Assembly (NCBI RefSeq): GCF_001687105.1 | Contig: NZ_CP014595.1 | Span: 1,240,001-1,304,000, forward strand | Length of the DNA: 64,000 nucleotides | Origin: Salipiger sp. CCB-MM3 | GTDB taxonomy: Bacteria > Pseudomonadota > Alphaproteobacteria > Rhodobacterales > Rhodobacteraceae | Direction: 5' to 3' | Shown: positions 5,397-12,914 of the stretch, one piece after another | Layout: every line of letters starts with the position of its first letter | Numbering within the stretch: the stretch's first letter is position 1 | Notes under the pieces: model-generated | The model's input: the letters and a program-made list of their open reading frames with translations, nothing else | What the model was told of the DNA's origin: nothing | The model's database searches: none | Position numbers and translations under genes: made by a program

Positions 5397-5591
5397 ATGA
5401 GCACACTACTCGCCATCATGATCCTTGCCGCCACCACGTTTCTCCTACTTGGGAACCTCCGGGGTGTGGCAGCGGACACTTATCAGGCGCTGGCGGGAGC
5501 CACCGCCCGGACCCGTGACCGTGGACTGCTGATCCCGAGGCTGGCCTTCGCCGCCCTCTGGCTGCTGATCTTCGTGCTCGGATATTTCTGA
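5397..5591 (+). CDS. Small two-helix membrane protein
   Basis: 64 residues starting MSTLLAIMILAATTFLLLG. Two hydrophobic segments (about residues 3-20 and 47-63) flank a short polar loop containing TARTRDRG, suggesting a small hairpin membrane protein. It is about 90 bases upstream of the first XpaC-like gene and reads in the same direction, so it may be the first gene of the XpaC-TelA cluster. The upstream ribosome binding site is weak. I recognise no family. Confidence 0.55.
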   Translation: MSTLLAIMILAATTFLLLGNLRGVAADTYQALAGATARTRDRGLLIPRLAFAALWLLIFVLGYF

Positions 5592-5679
5592 CCCCGCGAC
5601 GCAGCCGCCAGACGGCAGACCAAGGACCCCTCCCCTCACGCAGCCTCGCCCGGCCTTGAACGGACCACGGAACATCCTC

Positions 5680-6513
5680 ATGGCAAGACCCTCACGCAAA
5701 CGCAGACAGAGCGCTTCCTCCGGGCCGCTGGATTCCGGCTTGGGCGTGCTGATGCTTGCCGCGTTCCCGCTGCTGATGCTGCTGTTCCAAGGGCGTCCGG
5801 AAACCACCTTCACCGGCCTGCTGATGCTGGTCATCTTCGCGCTGGCGGTCTGGCTGATCCACCGCGGCACGAAGATCGCCCGCGCCTTCGAGGCGGCAGA
5901 GACGGCCAAAGCACCCCGCCTGCCGCGCAAGATGCTCGGCTCGGCGCTGCTTGGCCTTCTGGTGGTGATTCTCGCGGGCCATCACTTCGTCTCGCTGCCG
6001 GTGCCGCTGGGTCTCGGCGTGCTGGGCTTCGGGCTGGGTGTCGCGGCCTTCGGCAGAGATCCGCTCACCAGTAAACAGGCCGCGGTGGAAGAGGACATGC
6101 CGCATCTGCGCACGCAAGAGACGCTGGACCGTATCGACGCCGCCATCGGGCTCGCCGTCGCGGATGTGGCGGCCCTCAACGATGCCGAGCTTAGCCGCAG
6201 GGCCGAAGCCCTGCGCAGCGGCGTCATGGGGTTGATGCAGGCGATTTCGCAGGACCCGCTGGCCGCACGACGCCTGCGCAAGCCCGTGGCCCGCTTTCTT
6301 GAGCTTCTGAGCAAGGAAAACGCGCGCCTGATCGAAGCATGGGGCACCAAGGACCGGATGAAGGCGCGCCGCCGCTATCTGGCGCGGCTCACCTCGCTGG
6401 GCGAGGCCTTCGAAGAGCGTCTGCGCAAGGCCGGAACCGAGCAGGGCCGCGATGCCTATGATGTCGAGGCAGACCTCCTCTGGAACCGCATGGTCGACAA
6501 GAACGCGGCCTGA
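5680..6513 (+). CDS. XpaC-like membrane protein (first copy)
   Basis: 277 residues. The basic N-terminus MARPSRKRRQ is followed by four hydrophobic segments within residues 18-125, arranged as two hairpins separated by a basic segment (RGTKIARAFEAAE...). The rest is a soluble alpha-helical domain with coiled-coil character. This layout is the same as the gene at 6747, which resembles the XpaC family (named for 5-bromo-4-chloroindolyl phosphate hydrolysis), and the two look like diverged paralogues. Family membership is inferred mainly from architecture and from linkage to telA. No enzyme motif is visible. Confidence 0.6.
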   Translation: MARPSRKRRQSASSGPLDSGLGVLMLAAFPLLMLLFQGRPETTFTGLLMLVIFALAVWLIHRGTKIARAFEAAETAKAPRLPRKMLGSALLGLLVVILAGHHFVSLPVPLGLGVLGFGLGVAAFGRDPLTSKQAAVEEDMPHLRTQETLDRIDAAIGLAVADVAALNDAELSRRAEALRSGVMGLMQAISQDPLAARRLRKPVARFLELLSKENARLIEAWGTKDRMKARRRYLARLTSLGEAFEERLRKAGTEQGRDAYDVEADLLWNRMVDKNAA

Positions 6514-6654
6514 AACGCCAATGTGATGGCCATGTTGTGCCGCTTGGTATGACTTCTCCCCAAACAAGAGCCGACCCAAGGGAACTCCCCCCTAGCAAGT
6601 GACCATCTAAGCGCATAAGTTCTTGGTGAACCGAGAGAGCTTGCGGGGGGCACC

Positions 6655-6744
6655 ATGACCGACAAGGGCTTACGCAAGGTGGCCTATGTGCTGCTGATCG
6701 TGCTTCTTTTCGGAGTTACTTCCGGCTGGCTGGGAGGGCTCTGA
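6655..6744 (+). CDS. 29-residue single-helix membrane protein
   Basis: An ATG at 6655 preceded by the purine-rich GCGGGGGG opens a 29-codon frame starting MTDKGLRKVAYVLLIVLLF and ending at TGA 6742-6744. It has a short basic N-terminus and one hydrophobic stretch of about 17 residues, consistent with one membrane-spanning helix. Its 3' end, GGGAGGG, supplies the ribosome binding site for the TTG-started XpaC gene two bases downstream, implying translational coupling. It is very short; comparison with related genomes would settle whether it is real. Confidence 0.5.
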   Translation: MTDKGLRKVAYVLLIVLLFGVTSGWLGGL

Positions 6745-6746
6745 CC

Positions 6747-7646
6747 TTGGCACAACGCTACGGCGGCAAGTACAGTCCCGACGGGTCTTCCGACGATGCC
6801 GGCACCACCGACGAACGGCCGCTCTATCACGGAGCGAAGGTCGATCCGGTGGGCGCACGCTCGAATGTGCTCTTCGCCCCCCCGATCGTGCTGGCCGCGA
6901 CCTCGCTGAACGATGGCGCTGCGGGGCTGGCTCTGGGCCTTGTCGGCGCGGGCATCCTGCTGCTTGGCGCGTGGCTGCTGCGCGATGGCCTGCGGGCGCA
7001 GGCCGCCTATGACGAGCGCAAGATCGCCCGCCGCCCTTCGATCCCGAGAAAGCTTTTCGCCGCAGCCTGCGCGGGCGTCGGGATCGGTCTCGCGGCCTTC
7101 AAAGCCGATCCGGGCCTTGTGGCACCGGTGCTCTATGGGCTGTCCGCTGCCGCGCTTCACGTGGGCGCCTTCGGGCTCGACCCGATGAAGCACAAGGGCA
7201 TGGAAGGCATCGACACGTTCCAGCAGGACCGTGTCGCCAAGGTGGTGGACGAGGCAGAGGCCTATCTCAACGCCATGGAAGATGCGGTGCGCCGCGCGGG
7301 CGACCGGCAGGTCGAGGCGCGCGTGCAACGCTTCCACGCCAAAGCCAAGGACCTCATCCGCACCGTCGAAGAGGATCCGCGCGATCTGACCGCCGCGCGC
7401 AAATATCTTGGCGTCTATCTGATGGGCGCGCGCGACGCGGCGGTGAAATTCGCCGACATCTACAGCCGCACGCAGGATCGCGGGGCCAAGTCCGATTTCA
7501 TGATGTTGCTGACGGACCTCGAGGAGAGCTTCGGCCAGAAGAACCGCAAGCTGCTGCTCGACAATAATGCCGACCTCACGGTCGAGATCGACGTGCTGCG
7601 CGACCGCCTTCAGCGCGAAGGCGTGCGGCTCAAAGAGCCTGAATGA
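6747..7646 (+). CDS. XpaC family protein (5-bromo-4-chloroindolyl phosphate hydrolysis family)
   Basis: 299 residues. It uses a TTG start at 6747 with GGGAGGG ten bases upstream, inside the end of the preceding 29-residue frame; no closer ATG fits. Residues 1-35 are polar. Hydrophobic segments at about 42-80 and 95-135 are followed by a helical cytoplasmic domain (about 145-299) rich in charged residues. XpaC-like genes are commonly paired with telA in bacteria, as here, where telA starts 23 bases downstream. Comparative genomics places the pair in Ter-type stress-response networks. The molecular activity is unknown and the name hydrolase should not be taken literally. Confidence 0.75.
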   Translation: MAQRYGGKYSPDGSSDDAGTTDERPLYHGAKVDPVGARSNVLFAPPIVLAATSLNDGAAGLALGLVGAGILLLGAWLLRDGLRAQAAYDERKIARRPSIPRKLFAAACAGVGIGLAAFKADPGLVAPVLYGLSAAALHVGAFGLDPMKHKGMEGIDTFQQDRVAKVVDEAEAYLNAMEDAVRRAGDRQVEARVQRFHAKAKDLIRTVEEDPRDLTAARKYLGVYLMGARDAAVKFADIYSRTQDRGAKSDFMMLLTDLEESFGQKNRKLLLDNNADLTVEIDVLRDRLQREGVRLKEPE

Positions 7647-7669
7647 GAGACAGATACGGAGGAAGTCCG

Positions 7670-8872
7670 ATGTCCGAGAACGTAAGAGCCAAGGCCCAGC
7701 AGGAACTGGCTATGGTGGAAGAGGTGAATGCTGTGATCCTGCCCGACCCCAAGCCCGCGGATGAGGTGGAAAGCTATGAGGCCGCCTCGCCCGAGGTGAC
7801 CGAAGAGATCCGCGCCCGCATGGACGAGATCGACATGGGCGACACCCAGTCCATCGTCTCCTTCGGCTCGGCGGCTCAGGCCGAATTGCAGGAGATCAGT
7901 CAGGCGATGCTGGCGGACGTGCGCAACAAGGACGTCGGCCCCGCGGGCGACAGCCTGCGCAACATCGTCACCACGATCCGCGGCTTCTCGGTCTCGGAAC
8001 TGGATGTGCGCCGCAAGCGCAGCTGGTGGGAAAAGCTGATCGGCAAGGCCGCGCCCTTCGCCAAGTTCACCGCCCGCTACGAGGAGGTGCAGGGCCAGAT
8101 CGACGGCATCACCGACAGTCTGCTGAAGCACGAGCACACGCTGCTCAAGGACATCAAATCGCTCGACCTGCTCTACGACAAGACGCTGACCTTCTATGAC
8201 GAGCTGGCGCTCTACATCGCTGCGGGCCAGAAGAAGCTAGAGGAACTCGACGCCAACGACATCCCCGCCCGCGAAGCCGCCGTGGAGGCCGCCGCAGAGG
8301 ATCAGAAGGTGATGAAGGCGCAGGAACTGCGCGACCTGCGTGCCGCGCGGGACGATCTGGAACGCCGGGTGCACGATCTCAAGCTGACCCGGCAGGTGAC
8401 CATGCAGTCGCTGCCCTCGATCCGGCTGGTGCAGGAAAACGACAAGAGCCTCGTCACCAAGATCAACTCGACGCTGGTCAACACCGTGCCGCTCTGGGAG
8501 ACGCAGCTGGCGCAGGCAGTGACCATCCAGCGCTCATCCGAGGCCGCCGCCGCCGTCCGCGACGCCAACGATCTGACCAACGAGCTGCTGACCTCCAACG
8601 CCAAGAACCTGCGCGACAGCAACGCCGCCATCCGCACCGAGATGGAGCGCGGCGTCTTCGACATCGAGTCGGTCAAACAGGCCAATGCCGATCTGATCGC
8701 CACGATCCAAGACAGCCTGCGCATCGCCGACGAAGGCAAGGCGCGCCGCGCCGCCGCCGAGAAGGACCTGCAGCAGATGGAAGCCGAGCTGCGCGACACG
8801 CTGGCTTCGGCCAAGGCGCGGTCGACCGGCACCGGCGACAACGCCGCCACTTCGGTTCCAGCGGGGTCGTGA
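7670..8872 (+). CDS. telA: TelA family protein (toxic anion resistance)
   Basis: 400 residues, almost entirely alpha-helical and coiled-coil, the usual length for TelA/KlaA (PF05816). The ATG at 7670 has GGAGGA six bases upstream. Family landmarks are RRKRSWWEKLIGKAAPFAKF, then the helical segments HEHTLLKDIKSLDLLYDKTLTFYDELALYI and LTRQVTMQSLPSIRLVQENDKSL. TelA proteins were named from plasmid tellurite resistance, but chromosomal copies beside XpaC are thought to be part of an envelope or chemical stress response. No tellurite phenotype can be inferred here. The gene lies between XpaC and a DUF2927 lipoprotein in a tight operon. Confidence 0.9.
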   Translation: MSENVRAKAQQELAMVEEVNAVILPDPKPADEVESYEAASPEVTEEIRARMDEIDMGDTQSIVSFGSAAQAELQEISQAMLADVRNKDVGPAGDSLRNIVTTIRGFSVSELDVRRKRSWWEKLIGKAAPFAKFTARYEEVQGQIDGITDSLLKHEHTLLKDIKSLDLLYDKTLTFYDELALYIAAGQKKLEELDANDIPAREAAVEAAAEDQKVMKAQELRDLRAARDDLERRVHDLKLTRQVTMQSLPSIRLVQENDKSLVTKINSTLVNTVPLWETQLAQAVTIQRSSEAAAAVRDANDLTNELLTSNAKNLRDSNAAIRTEMERGVFDIESVKQANADLIATIQDSLRIADEGKARRAAAEKDLQQMEAELRDTLASAKARSTGTGDNAATSVPAGS

Positions 8873-8876
8873 CCAT

Positions 8877-9854
8877 ATGCGGGGTTGGGGTAAAAGTGTA
8901 CTGAGCATCTTGGTTTGCGCGGGCCTCGCGGCCTGCGATAGTTCTGCCCTGGCTCCGCGCAGCACCGAAGTGCTGCCGCAGTCGCGCCCCTCCGGGCTCA
9001 AGCCTCGCGAGGCTGAAACCCCGGGCGCGCCGCGGCAATCCCTGGCGAGCTACGATCTGGAGGTCTATTACGCCCGGGTGCAGGCCGATCTGCTGTCACA
9101 GGGTCTGCTCCGCACCGACGGCGGCGGACCCGACACGCCGGTCACCGACACCATGCTGATGCGCAATTTCGAACGCATCGCTCTGGCCGAGGAATACGCC
9201 CGCGGCCAAGGGCTGAAACCCTCACGCGGCGAGCTTGGCCGGGTGAAGAAATGGCTCAAGCCGGTGCGCGTCTCGGTCGAGTTCGGCGACCATGTTCCGG
9301 CGGAGCAGCAGGTCACCGACCGCAACCAGCTCAGCCAATACGTCAGCCGTCTTGGCCGGATCACCGGGCATCCGATCTCGATGACCACCGGCAATTCGAA
9401 CTTCCACGTTCTGTTCATGTCCGAGGACGATAAGAAGACCATCGCCCCGCGCATCAAACAGCTGGTGCCCGATGTGAACCCCACGGCGCTGGCGGTGTTC
9501 AACGATCTGCCGCGTGAGATTCACTGCCTCGTCATCGCCTTTTCCGACGAGCCGGACGGCTATGCCTACGGTCAGGCCATCGCGGTAATCCGCTCCGAGC
9601 ATCCGGATCTGCTGCGCCGATCCTGTATCCACGAAGAAGTGGCGCAGGGGCTGGGGCTTGGCAACGACAGCCCGCAGGCCCGGCCCTCGATCTTCAATGA
9701 CGACGACGAGTTCGCGCTTCTCACCTCGATGGACGAGATGCTGCTGAAAATCCTTTACGACCCCCAGCTCAAACCCGGCATGGATGCCGCCACCGCGCGG
9801 CCGATCGTGCAGGATCTTGCCGCGCAGATGACCGGCGGCAGCGGGCCAAGCTGA
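8877..9854 (+). CDS. DUF2927 family lipoprotein
   Basis: 325 residues. The N-terminus MRGWGKSVLSILVCAGLAAC is a lipoprotein signal with the lipidated Cys at position 20, so the protein should be membrane-anchored facing the periplasm. The C-terminal part contains SCIHEEVAQGLGLGNDSP and SIFNDDDEFALLTSMDE, the hallmarks of DUF2927. The HEE arrangement recalls zinc metallopeptidases, but catalysis has not been shown and is only a possibility. The gene starts four bases after telA and is followed by the SPFH gene 30 bases later, so it is part of the same operon. Confidence 0.85.
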   Translation: MRGWGKSVLSILVCAGLAACDSSALAPRSTEVLPQSRPSGLKPREAETPGAPRQSLASYDLEVYYARVQADLLSQGLLRTDGGGPDTPVTDTMLMRNFERIALAEEYARGQGLKPSRGELGRVKKWLKPVRVSVEFGDHVPAEQQVTDRNQLSQYVSRLGRITGHPISMTTGNSNFHVLFMSEDDKKTIAPRIKQLVPDVNPTALAVFNDLPREIHCLVIAFSDEPDGYAYGQAIAVIRSEHPDLLRRSCIHEEVAQGLGLGNDSPQARPSIFNDDDEFALLTSMDEMLLKILYDPQLKPGMDAATARPIVQDLAAQMTGGSGPS

Positions 9855-9884
9855 GCTGAGGACAGGCGACAACAGGAGATGATC

Positions 9885-11006
9885 ATGGGAATTCTGGATT
9901 TCCTCTCGGGGCAGTTCATCGACGTCATCCACTGGACCGACGACACCCGCGACACGATGGTCTGGCGCTTCGAGCGCGAGGGCCATGAAATCAAATACGG
10001 CGCCAAGCTCACCGTGCGCGAGGGGCAGGCAGCGGTTTTCGTGCACGAAGGGCAACTGGCGGATGTGTTCACGCCGGGTCTCTACATGCTCGAGACCAAC
10101 AACATGCCGATCATGACCTCGCTGCAGCACTGGGATCACGGCTTCCGATCGCCCTTCAAATCCGAGATTTATTTCGTCAACACCACCCGCTTCACCGGGC
10201 TGAAGTGGGGCACGAAAAACCCGATCATCTGCCGCGACCCCGAGTTCGGCCCGGTGCGCCTGCGCGCCTATGGCACCTATTCGGTGCGCGTGTCGGACCC
10301 GGCGAAATTCCTCGTCGAGATCGTCGGCACCGATGGCGAGTTCACCAGCCACGAGATCAGCTTCCAGATCCGCAATATCATCGTGCAGGAGTTCTCGCGG
10401 CTGATCGCCTCTTCGGGCATTCCGGTGCTCGACATGGCGGCCAATACGCAAGAGCTGGGCAAGATGCTGGCCGAGGGCATTTCGTCGACCATCGCCGAAT
10501 ACGGCCTGTCGCTGCCCGAGCTTTACATCGAGAACATCTCGCTGCCCGATGCGGTCGAAAAGGCGCTCGACAAGCGCACGTCGATGGGCGTGGTGGGCGA
10601 TCTTGATGCCTATACCCGCTTTCAGGCCGCCGAGGCGCTGGGGGCCGAGGGCTCTGCCGCCGGTCAGGCCATGGGCACCGGCTTTGGCGCGGGCATGGGG
10701 ATGGCCATGGGCGGCGCCATGACCGGCGCGCAGGCGGGTCCGTGGGGCGCGCGCCCGCAGCAGACCGCTGCCACCGCGCCGCCGCCTCCCCCGCCGCCGG
10801 TGGAACATGTGTGGCACGTGGCCTCGGGCGGCCAGACCAGCGGCCCCTTCTCCAAGGCCAGGCTCGGACGCATGGCGACCGAGGGCGAGCTGACCCGCGA
10901 CAGCTATGTCTGGACCCAAGGTCAGGACGGCTGGAAACGCGCCGAGGACGTAACCGAACTGGCGCAGCTCTTCACCGTTCTGCCACCGCCGCCTCCGGGC
11001 GTCTGA
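9885..11006 (+). CDS. SPFH domain protein with C-terminal GYF_2 domain
   Basis: 373 residues. An in-frame ATG at 9879 exists, but AGGAG at 9874-9878 is correctly spaced only for 9885. Residues about 20-240 form an SPFH/Band-7-like domain of the type annotated as 'virion core protein-like' (VREGQAAVFVHEGQLADVFTPG, IRNIIVQEFSRLIASSG). A Gly/Ala/Met-rich stretch and a run of seven prolines follow, then a GYF_2 domain (HVWHVASGGQTSGPFSKARL ... DSYVWTQGQDGW). SPFH proteins organise membrane complexes, and the Bacillus YdjI relative belongs to a PspA-recruiting complex together with a zinc-ribbon protein. The zinc-ribbon gene here, at 11796, makes a similar partnership plausible (inference). The 3' end overlaps a convergent gene by 35 bases. 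Confidence 0.88.
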   Translation: MGILDFLSGQFIDVIHWTDDTRDTMVWRFEREGHEIKYGAKLTVREGQAAVFVHEGQLADVFTPGLYMLETNNMPIMTSLQHWDHGFRSPFKSEIYFVNTTRFTGLKWGTKNPIICRDPEFGPVRLRAYGTYSVRVSDPAKFLVEIVGTDGEFTSHEISFQIRNIIVQEFSRLIASSGIPVLDMAANTQELGKMLAEGISSTIAEYGLSLPELYIENISLPDAVEKALDKRTSMGVVGDLDAYTRFQAAEALGAEGSAAGQAMGTGFGAGMGMAMGGAMTGAQAGPWGARPQQTAATAPPPPPPPVEHVWHVASGGQTSGPFSKARLGRMATEGELTRDSYVWTQGQDGWKRAEDVTELAQLFTVLPPPPPGV

Positions 11007-11595
11007 TCGCACGGGAGGCTACCGGGAAGGAGGCGGGCAGCACCGCCTCCGGCCCCGCTTGGCCCAGCAGCGCCGGGGCAAGGCAGGCATCGGCGGGAAA
11101 TTTGACCGACGGGTCGGGCACCGCCGGGAAGGGCCGCGCGGGCGGCACCTGCGAGGCCACCAGCAGCCGACCATCGAGGCAGAGGTCCTGCGCCGCATTG
11201 CCGATGTTGAAGCCGAAGCCGTCCTGACCGCAATCCGTGCCGAACCCATCCATGTTCCACGCCTGCGGCATCAGGCTTTGCGGGCCGAAAACCTCGAAGG
11301 CGTTCTGCTGCGGCAAGAAGGTGAGCGACCATGTGGTGTCTTCGGTCTTCATGCCGAGCGCCCAGCGACCAATCGGCTCGCCCTCGTGGTAGCCCTCGAC
11401 GACGAAGCACTCCACGTCCTCGCCAAAGACACGCTCGCGCTCTGCAAGCGCCGCGTCGATGGCCAGCGCGCCGCGCATCTCGTAACCGTCGCCGCCCTGC
11501 CACTCGAACCGCCAGGACAGGTCGGCGGCCATGGCCGCGCCGCTGTAGAGCGCAAGCCCGAGGACAGCCCCGGCGCATGTGTTCAGTCCTGTCAT
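10972..11595 (-). CDS. Hypothetical secreted protein
   Basis: 207 residues from the ATG at 11595 (GGAGA upstream); an ATG at 11610 with GGGGA upstream would add five residues. The start MTGLNTCAGAVLGLALYSGA reads as a signal peptide ending AMA-A, so the mature protein should be periplasmic. The body holds FECQ-free beta-rich segments such as WRFEWQGGDGYEMRGALAI and several Cys (VECFVV, GTDCGQDG, DLCLDG, DACLAP) that could form disulfides. I recognise no family. It overlaps the 3' end of the SPFH gene tail-to-tail by 35 bases. Whether it works with the SPFH cluster is unknown. Confidence 0.7.
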   Translation of the reverse strand: MTGLNTCAGAVLGLALYSGAAMAADLSWRFEWQGGDGYEMRGALAIDAALAERERVFGEDVECFVVEGYHEGEPIGRWALGMKTEDTTWSLTFLPQQNAFEVFGPQSLMPQAWNMDGFGTDCGQDGFGFNIGNAAQDLCLDGRLLVASQVPPARPFPAVPDPSVKFPADACLAPALLGQAGPEAVLPASFPVASRAIRRPEAAVAER

Positions 11596-11795
11596 CACGG
11601 TCTCCGGCATCTCTGTCCCCGGCACCCTAGCCTTGGAGCTGCACGCGAGAAAAGCGCCTGTCGCGAAGTTGTGTGCGCAAGCCCCTGCGCCCGCAGCGCA
11701 TCGGGCAAACGCTTGCCCGAAAACCGGTTCCCTCTCCCGTCCCATCCGCCTAGGGTGGCGCTGCCGGAAATGGCGGATCTGGAGGCACTTCGGGC

Positions 11796-12914
11796 ATGAA
11801 CGAAACCCACCGATTTCCCTGCGAGCAATGCGGCGCCGACTACCGGTTCGATCCGTCGACGAGCGAATTGGTCTGCGATCATTGCGGCCACAGCCAGAAG
11901 GTCGAATCCACGGGTCCATGGGAAAGCGACATCCGCGAGCTGGATTTCCGCGCCGCGATGGACAACCTGCTGCCGCTTCAGGAGATGGAGGACCTGCGGG
12001 TCACCCAATGCCCGAACTGCGGCGCCGAGGTCGAGTTCGATCCCGACACCCATGCCACCGAATGCCCGTTCTGTGCCACGCCGGTCGTCGCCGACACCGG
12101 CACCCACCGGCAGATCAAACCCAAGGGCGTGCTGCCCTTCGCGCTTGACGAGAACGCCGCGCGCGGCGCGATGAACGACTGGCTGGGGCGACTTTGGTTC
12201 GCCCCCAATGGCCTCAAGGAATATGCCCGCAAGGGCCGCAAGATGCAGGGCATCTATGTGCCCTACTGGACCTTCGACGCCCATACCCGCTCTGCCTACA
12301 GCGGCGCGCGCGGCACGGTCTATTATGAGACGCGCACGGTGATGCGTGACGGCAAGCGCCAACAGGTGCAGGTCGCCAAGGTGCGCTGGACCCCGGTGCG
12401 CGGGCGCGTTGCGCGCTTCTTCGACGACGTGCTGGTGCTGGCCTCGAAGTCTCTGCCGAAGAAATTCACCGATGCGCTGGAGCCGTGGGATCTGAGCCGG
12501 CTCGAACCCTATCGGCCCGAGTTCCTCGCCGGATTCCGCGCCGAGGGCTATCAGGTCGATCTCGACGCAGGGTTCGTCGAGGCGCGGCATATCATGGACC
12601 GGCAGATCACCCGCGACATCAAGTTCGACATCGGCGGCGACCAGCAGCGGATCACCTCGGTGGACACACAGGTGTCGGAAGTGACCTTCAAGCATGTGCT
12701 GCTGCCGGTCTGGCTGGCGGCCTACAAGTTCCGGGGCCAGACCTACCGCTTCGTGGTCAATGGCACCACCGGGCGGGTTCAGGGAGAGCGCCCCTGGTCG
12801 ATATGGAAAATCGCGCTGGCCGTGATCATCGGGGCAATCGTCGCGGGATTTGTCGGCTACATGCTGTCGCAATCGCAGGGCGACGTCAGCTTCAGCATGC
12901 CGACAGGCTATTGA
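11796..12914 (+). CDS. Zinc-ribbon protein with C-terminal membrane helix
   Basis: 372 residues. Two zinc ribbons are visible: CEQCG...CDHCG (Cys 9, 12, 28, 31 approximately) and CPNCG...CPFC (Cys 71, 74, 89, 92 approximately). A long middle domain includes MQGIYVPYWTFDAHTRSAYSGARG, and a single hydrophobic helix near residues 338-358 (IALAVIIGAIVAGFVGYML) anchors the C-terminus. Relatives are often mislabelled as primosomal protein N' or TFIIB-type zinc finger; there are no helicase motifs here. Bacillus YdjG, a zinc-ribbon membrane protein, works with SPFH protein YdjI, and the SPFH gene lies just upstream. The shared role is inference. Confidence 0.8.
   Translation: MNETHRFPCEQCGADYRFDPSTSELVCDHCGHSQKVESTGPWESDIRELDFRAAMDNLLPLQEMEDLRVTQCPNCGAEVEFDPDTHATECPFCATPVVADTGTHRQIKPKGVLPFALDENAARGAMNDWLGRLWFAPNGLKEYARKGRKMQGIYVPYWTFDAHTRSAYSGARGTVYYETRTVMRDGKRQQVQVAKVRWTPVRGRVARFFDDVLVLASKSLPKKFTDALEPWDLSRLEPYRPEFLAGFRAEGYQVDLDAGFVEARHIMDRQITRDIKFDIGGDQQRITSVDTQVSEVTFKHVLLPVWLAAYKFRGQTYRFVVNGTTGRVQGERPWSIWKIALAVIIGAIVAGFVGYMLSQSQGDVSFSMPTGY

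Follow-up and report, generated by a model that had tools for sequence, protein, structure and literature searches.

We describe a locus of Salipiger sp. CCB-MM3 in which genes for XpaC, TelA, an SPFH protein with a GYF domain and a double-zinc-ribbon protein (ZnR) follow a transmembrane (TM) microprotein of about 30 residues. It lies within a 64,000-nucleotide stretch (contig NZ_CP014595.1, positions 1,240,001 to 1,304,000; hereafter the window, in whose numbering positions are given) of a 5.5 Mb genome (G000). Comparative genomics makes it very probable that these genes have been inherited together as a unit. Since this genome has no detectable PspA and no TerD, we count the locus neither as a recruiter of PspA nor as a Ter system, and it is best read, on our analysis, as a putative PspA-less relative of Bacillus YdjG/YdjI. 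We give even chances to the further proposal that microprotein, XpaC, TelA, SPFH/GYF protein and double-zinc-ribbon TM protein would act together as one inner-membrane assembly, by a mechanism outlined below.

The evidence for co-inheritance begins with 121 genomes of the order, all placed by their taxonomic labels in one family, the Rhodobacteraceae. TelA was found in 119 and an SPFH orthologue in 117, the two together in 117; both are absent from two genomes (G011, G106), TelA stands alone in G081 and, in degenerate form, in G085, and none of the 121 has the SPFH protein without TelA. Neighbourhoods were compared in 20-kb stretches (shorter at contig ends) centred on TelA from 59 genomes covering 57 of 58 genera, to which one SPFH locus of G048 was added (60 loci), the window's proteins being mapped by tblastn; counts over the 59 TelA loci follow fixed distance rules (SPFH on the same strand within 5 kb downstream, ZnR within 8 kb). 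XpaC lies directly upstream of TelA in 56/59 loci, SPFH follows TelA in 55/59, ZnR is within reach in 49/59, and a DUF2927 lipoprotein is present in 55/59. The four loci without linked SPFH are L048, with the halves on two contigs, L085 (G081), L087 (G085) and L096 (G110), where SPFH is ~14 kb off; among the ten ZnR misses, L056, L081 and L093 end at contig ends, and L046, L049 and L059 miss within a full stretch. A preliminary description of this DNA, made from the sequence alone, had assigned XpaC-TelA and SPFH-ZnR to one system, and had taken independent occurrence of the two halves in most relatives as what would speak against it. Within the family the halves are linked in most genomes and do belong together there; further afield the claim holds only in part.

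Outside the family, a class sample of 142 genomes was drawn evenly (including family members G000 and G001) and searched at E 1e-20. Among its 140 non-family genomes, TelA is found in nine and the SPFH family Band_7_1 in five, and all five carry TelA (Fisher p 3e-7, phylogeny ignored). Four of these five (G250, G176, G183, G236), which represent four different families, show the order XpaC-TelA-SPFH-ZnR, with gaps of 24-277 bases between TelA and SPFH and 13-53 between SPFH and ZnR, and their fetched stretches contain no match to DUF2927 or to rluB and dtd, neighbours of the locus within the family. TelA and SPFH lie apart in G132, and TelA occurs without a strong Band_7_1 match in G124, G155, G161 and G231. 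An even draw of 200 genomes from the phylum (Band_7_1 threshold 1e-20) added loci in which ZnR adjoins SPFH (8/10 fetched non-alphaproteobacterial loci), and three genomes (G268, G325, G439) in which TelA and Band_7_1 genes are both present, not on one contig.

Named genomes were scanned with an alignment of 13 SPFH sequences, 12 of them non-family, and the 80 best loci out of at least 593 were kept, so that the sample is biased. In 42 of these 80 a same-strand TelA precedes SPFH, and six of the remaining 38 have fewer than 1500 bases upstream and so cannot tell. XpaC accompanies 38 of the 42 TelA-linked loci and ZnR also 38 (both in 34), as against none and 25, respectively, of the 38 TelA-less loci. 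The gap between TelA and SPFH is -143 to 122 bases in 28/42 by the open reading frame (ORF) calls of this analysis; DUF2927 intervenes in another 13, and one gap is 2.6 kb. Judged by record titles, 28 of the 42 belong neither to Rhodobacteraceae nor to Neomegalonema, 23 of them with all four genes, and these 28 come from Alphaproteobacteria, Gammaproteobacteria (Sedimenticola, Granulosicoccus, Thiotrichaceae, Competibacteraceae) and Campylobacterota (Sulfurovum, Campylobacteraceae). The TelA-less loci include Bacteroidota, Planctomycetota, Verrucomicrobiota, Chloroflexota, Actinomycetota and Geobacter relatives, as well as Methylotuvimicrobium, a Kangiellaceae bacterium and Inquilinus. Because the cluster is conserved across loci, a chance association can be excluded.

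Phylogenies of the two proteins point the same way. In a tree of 66 TelA proteins all 47 SPFH-linked members fall on one side of a branch of length 2.1 (support 100/100), in a group of 51 whose four unlinked members are L096 (split), L085 (loss), L103 (contig end) and L110; the remaining 15 unlinked TelAs fall outside it. In the SPFH tree a group with support 91/77 holds 48 rows, among them the 43 linked ones, and its five unlinked members include L096 and L099 from split genomes. Both trees are midpoint-rooted and leave out several near-duplicate members, and the long branches L102, L111 and L129 are placed with little certainty. A single origin of the linkage, followed by joint inheritance with few losses, is the simplest reading.

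The microprotein immediately ahead of xpaC, which in the window stops two bases before the xpaC start, matches no Pfam family. A rule-based scan finds a single-TM ORF of 26-30 residues terminating at or near the xpaC start in 51/56 family loci with an xpaC match, a count that includes L045, evidently in the wrong frame. A profile built from 57 training sequences (50 rule-based family ORFs and seven others) finds matches upstream of 51/60 xpaC genes in the family sample and 30/47 elsewhere, counts inflated by the training sequences they contain, and none in 270 random regions from the same loci. Restricted to non-training cases outside the family sample, some of which are further Rhodobacteraceae, the microprotein is found in 23/40. 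Its range extends from Alphaproteobacteria to Campylobacterota, with relatives in Gammaproteobacteria also. In the family sample L055, L058, L079, L088 and L096 lack it at the profile threshold, and the rule-based scan shows a microprotein in four of them. The profile finds none ahead of the six extra XpaC copies, none in loci where TelA and SPFH are unlinked (L106, L110, L124, L126), and none in the linked loci L100, L101, L104, L149, L155, L181, L196, L199, L202, L207 and L208. The fraction of comparisons that differ is 0.48, 0.35 and 0.61 at codon positions 1, 2 and 3, respectively, which is the pattern of a coding region, and the ratio of nonsynonymous to synonymous differences (pN/pS; 0.65, uncorrected) is, given the divergence, no more than a mild indication of constraint.

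The features of the locus are collected in Table 1. The gene positions given in the preliminary description were borne out, as were its TelA, DUF2927 lipoprotein, SPFH/GYF and zinc-ribbon assignments, by Pfam or alignments, and the 64-aa two-TM ORF is present; the description's plural 'small membrane proteins' may have covered the 29-aa microprotein, which is otherwise an additional gene. The seven genes it had placed in one same-strand run are all there, and the run is broken by a minus-strand ORF between the SPFH and ZnR genes.

Table 1. Features of the locus, with positions in the window.
Feature	Positions	Strand	Basis
Two-TM protein, 64 aa, ahead of the extra XpaC copy	5397..5591	+	ORF, hydropathy
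Diverged XpaC paralogue, several hydrophobic segments and a tail	5656..6513	+	Paralogy to second XpaC
Microprotein, 29 aa, single TM, immediately ahead of xpaC	6655..6744	+	Profile relatives, codon-position pattern
XpaC (Halogen_Hydrol family)	6747..7646	+	PF10112, E 3.7e-24
TelA	7670..8872	+	PF05816, E 1.3e-108
DUF2927 lipoprotein (accessory gene)	8877..9854	+	PF11150, E 2.2e-60
SPFH (Band_7_1) protein ending in a GYF domain and polyproline tail	9885..11006	+	Pfam
ORF with signal-peptide-like start (judged by eye), outside the conserved set	10972..11595	-	ORF
Double-zinc-ribbon protein (ZnR), 372 aa, long-stranded beta domain and C-terminal hydrophobic segment	11796..12914	+	

Gaps of 23, 4 and 30 bases separate XpaC from TelA, TelA from DUF2927 and DUF2927 from SPFH. 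XpaC scores 86.2 bits against PF10112 (cut-off 29.8) and is hydrophobic around residues 60-78 and 124-142. TelA, which has no hydrophobic segment, scores 363.5 bits against a cut-off of 30 and covers model positions 3-331 of 332; its AlphaFold2 (AF2) model predicts a long helical hairpin (predicted local distance difference test, pLDDT, 72.7; predicted template modelling score, pTM, 0.54). As a test of kinship with PspA/ESCRT-III, hhalign of TelA against a PspA profile detected no homology (probability 0.5%), although the profile was small (10 PspA sequences of the family) and helical models cannot decide the matter. The SPFH protein matches Band_7_1 (PF13421) above the cut-off with 343 bits (E 7e-103) and GYF_2 with E 3e-20, and 142 of 150 relatives carry PPP within their last 25 residues. 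In ZnR the two zinc ribbons correspond to listed Pfam matches (25 models, nearly all zinc ribbons) under the curated cut-offs; eight cysteines are invariant in alignments of 11 and of 50 relatives, its hydrophobic segment spans residues 339-357, and its AF2 model is scored at pLDDT 91.6 and pTM 0.85. Public records name some ZnR relatives "primosomal protein N' (replication factor Y) - superfamily II helicase", which does not fit the architecture of a 372-aa zinc-ribbon membrane protein.

The DUF2927 lipoprotein is accessory to the conserved set, being absent from the operons of four other alphaproteobacterial families. Its lipobox cysteine (Cys20) is kept in 58/58 aligned rows, H252 in 57/58 and E253, E254 and Q257 in 58/58; this near-invariant HEExxQ...ND motif hints at a zincin-like site, without the canonical spacing, and a second copy of the gene is present in G000 at C1:2558841. 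The first of the two XpaC-like proteins named in the preliminary description is a paralogue only, with no Pfam match over the cut-off, and Pfam confirms the second; the two share 24.7% identity over 227 aa (E 4e-16), which makes the first a diverged paralogue. Its start might instead be a later ATG, at 5680. An extra XpaC copy occurs in 4/59 loci, and the pair formed by it and the small TM protein (5397-6513) is likewise confined to 4/59 loci from three genera, apparently a lineage-specific XpaC duplication. The frame of the 64-aa ORF opens with a TTG (5388) in the ORF list and has an ATG at 5397, and tblastn finds relatives of its product in 4/60 loci (L040, L041, L059, L073) of three genera. 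We propose that the DUF2927 lipoprotein was a later addition to the unit, and likewise the extra XpaC, found here and in two further sampled genera.

The minus-strand ORF matches no Pfam family, and relatives with 55-61% identity occupy the matching place and strand in 3/60 loci (L040, L041, L088). In several family members (L043, L045, L061, L067 and others) an extra same-strand membrane-type ORF, cytochrome-like by eye, lies between SPFH and ZnR. None of six locus proteins matched a PADLOC anti-phage defence model at 0.01.

SPFH proteins oligomerise, as is established for the fold. In the mechanism that we envisage, ZnR would anchor the SPFH protein at the cytoplasmic face through its C-terminal TM segment, and the GYF domain, beside a polyproline tail, could either chain SPFH subunits or bind a proline-rich partner. 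XpaC and the microprotein would form an integral receptor that recruits TelA, whose long helical hairpin may cover or stabilise damaged membrane; in Bacillus that job falls to PspA, working with YdjG/YdjI. Envelope stress, for instance from cationic peptides or toxic oxyanions, would set the response off. We infer that TelA would be the client loaded onto the membrane. More tentatively, TelA might be the effector that protects the membrane in an envelope-repair machine free of PspA, in which a ZnR-anchored SPFH/GYF lattice loads TelA through XpaC and the microprotein; TelA and PspA might then have no common ancestry and yet be exchangeable as clients of a single ancient SPFH-zinc-ribbon platform.

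Several observations weigh against a single assembly. SPFH-ZnR pairs occur without TelA in many phyla and TelA without adjacent SPFH in several proteobacteria, the genomes G048 and G110 have the halves split, and in none of the 14 non-alphaproteobacterial Band_7_1 genomes of the phylum sample is TelA on the same contig. Some of the family linkage is plain synteny, given that rluB is in reach in 48/59 loci and dtd in 41/59, and the label counts on the two trees (5 and 6 changes) are by themselves no proof of a single origin. The separate occurrences would suit two functionally distinct modules, XpaC-TelA and SPFH-ZnR, brought to one locus by a common stress regulon and not joined in one complex, an explanation we hold possible at well under even odds. 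The doubt over synteny is lessened because compact operons recur outside the family, and two independent modules sit poorly with the strong grouping of linked TelAs and of linked SPFHs in their trees, or with TelA and SPFH frames that abut or nearly do so in 28 of the 80 scanned loci, across classes. When 48 TelA-less SPFH loci were compared among themselves, the top neighbour clusters were shadow ORFs of core genes (7 loci), a loose cluster that includes an ABC-type ATPase (7 loci; single linkage, both strands, 4-kb range) and a different zinc-ribbon protein (7 loci), the last being the sole specific-looking recurrent neighbour. This shorter protein (~230 residues) follows SPFH in Geobacter-/Desulfuromonas-type loci (L135, L139, L150, L152, L165, L166, L168).

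The preliminary description likened the SPFH/zinc-ribbon pair to YdjI/YdjG, which recruit PspA; as a canonical Psp-type module, the pair would recruit a PspA encoded elsewhere. PspA genes are indeed matched in 40/121 genomes of the order, and YdjI does bring PspA to the membrane in Bacillus, according to the accessible part of PMC8581546; yet a Pfam search finds no PspA (PF04012) in G000 and none in 81 of the 121 genomes in all, with SPFH present in 117 of the 121. Since PspA is absent here and patchy in the order, its recruitment cannot be the general job of the pair; for G000 such a module is largely refuted, PspA being missing at the search threshold used, and we consider it most improbable. 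An oxyanion (tellurite) resistance operon proper, with TelA as the resistance factor and the scaffold incidental, is suggested by the family name and by the listing of Rhodobacter sphaeroides telA as a tellurite determinant in the available portion of a review. We think this unlikely: the Listeria mutant was reportedly hit harder for nisin (4-fold) than for tellurite (2-fold), G000 has no match to TerD (PF02342), and the conserved partners are scaffold-type membrane proteins.

Our literature search found no paper on this operon, which is not proof that it is unpublished, and by word count TelA goes unmentioned in the available text of PMC11237479, PMC9239133, PMC10936438, PMC7159879 and PMC12419801. 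TelA and XpaC were named after marginal phenotypes (tellurite and a chromogenic dye, respectively). The conserved operon links both with a platform whose equivalent in Bacillus helps, by experimental test, to position a membrane-repair protein, suggests that PspA-less bacteria may employ a different client on a similar scaffold, and adds a small membrane protein outside Pfam families.

Among known systems, TelA is often named together with Ter (TerBCDE/TerY) systems, and the preliminary description had applied the label of a Ter-type stress network; lacking TerD, G000 differs from these, and the label does not hold. R. sphaeroides offers a same-named protein in a related bacterium, going by the part of the review available. 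In Firmicutes, where the arrangement is taken from the literature, xpaC and telA are likewise neighbouring genes induced by envelope stress (Listeria lmo1966-1967, induced along with psp genes; Lactococcus llmg_1115-1116, part of a stress response); the Listeria pair is a putative two-gene operon in the regulon of the psp genes, whereas here the pair is in one run with the SPFH/ZnR platform. The closest parallel, already drawn in the preliminary description and supported here, is B. subtilis pspA-ydjGHI: among 14 control genomes Band_7_1 is strong only in B. subtilis at 1e-20, and ZnR appears to have the published architecture of YdjG, a two-zinc-ribbon protein with a YpeB-related domain and TM segment that adjoins a Band_7_1 SPFH protein (PMC11237479, in its accessible part), the structural support for a YpeB-related domain in this ZnR being weak. 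There, YdjI and YdjG/H act upstream of PspA localisation (PMC8581546, in the portion available). No TPM protein of the YdjH type was matched by Pfam among the operon proteins, to which that search was confined. The Salipiger locus differs in lacking PspA, in an SPFH protein that finishes in GYF and polyproline where YdjI finishes in a zinc ribbon, and in the neighbouring places, which here are occupied by TelA and XpaC.

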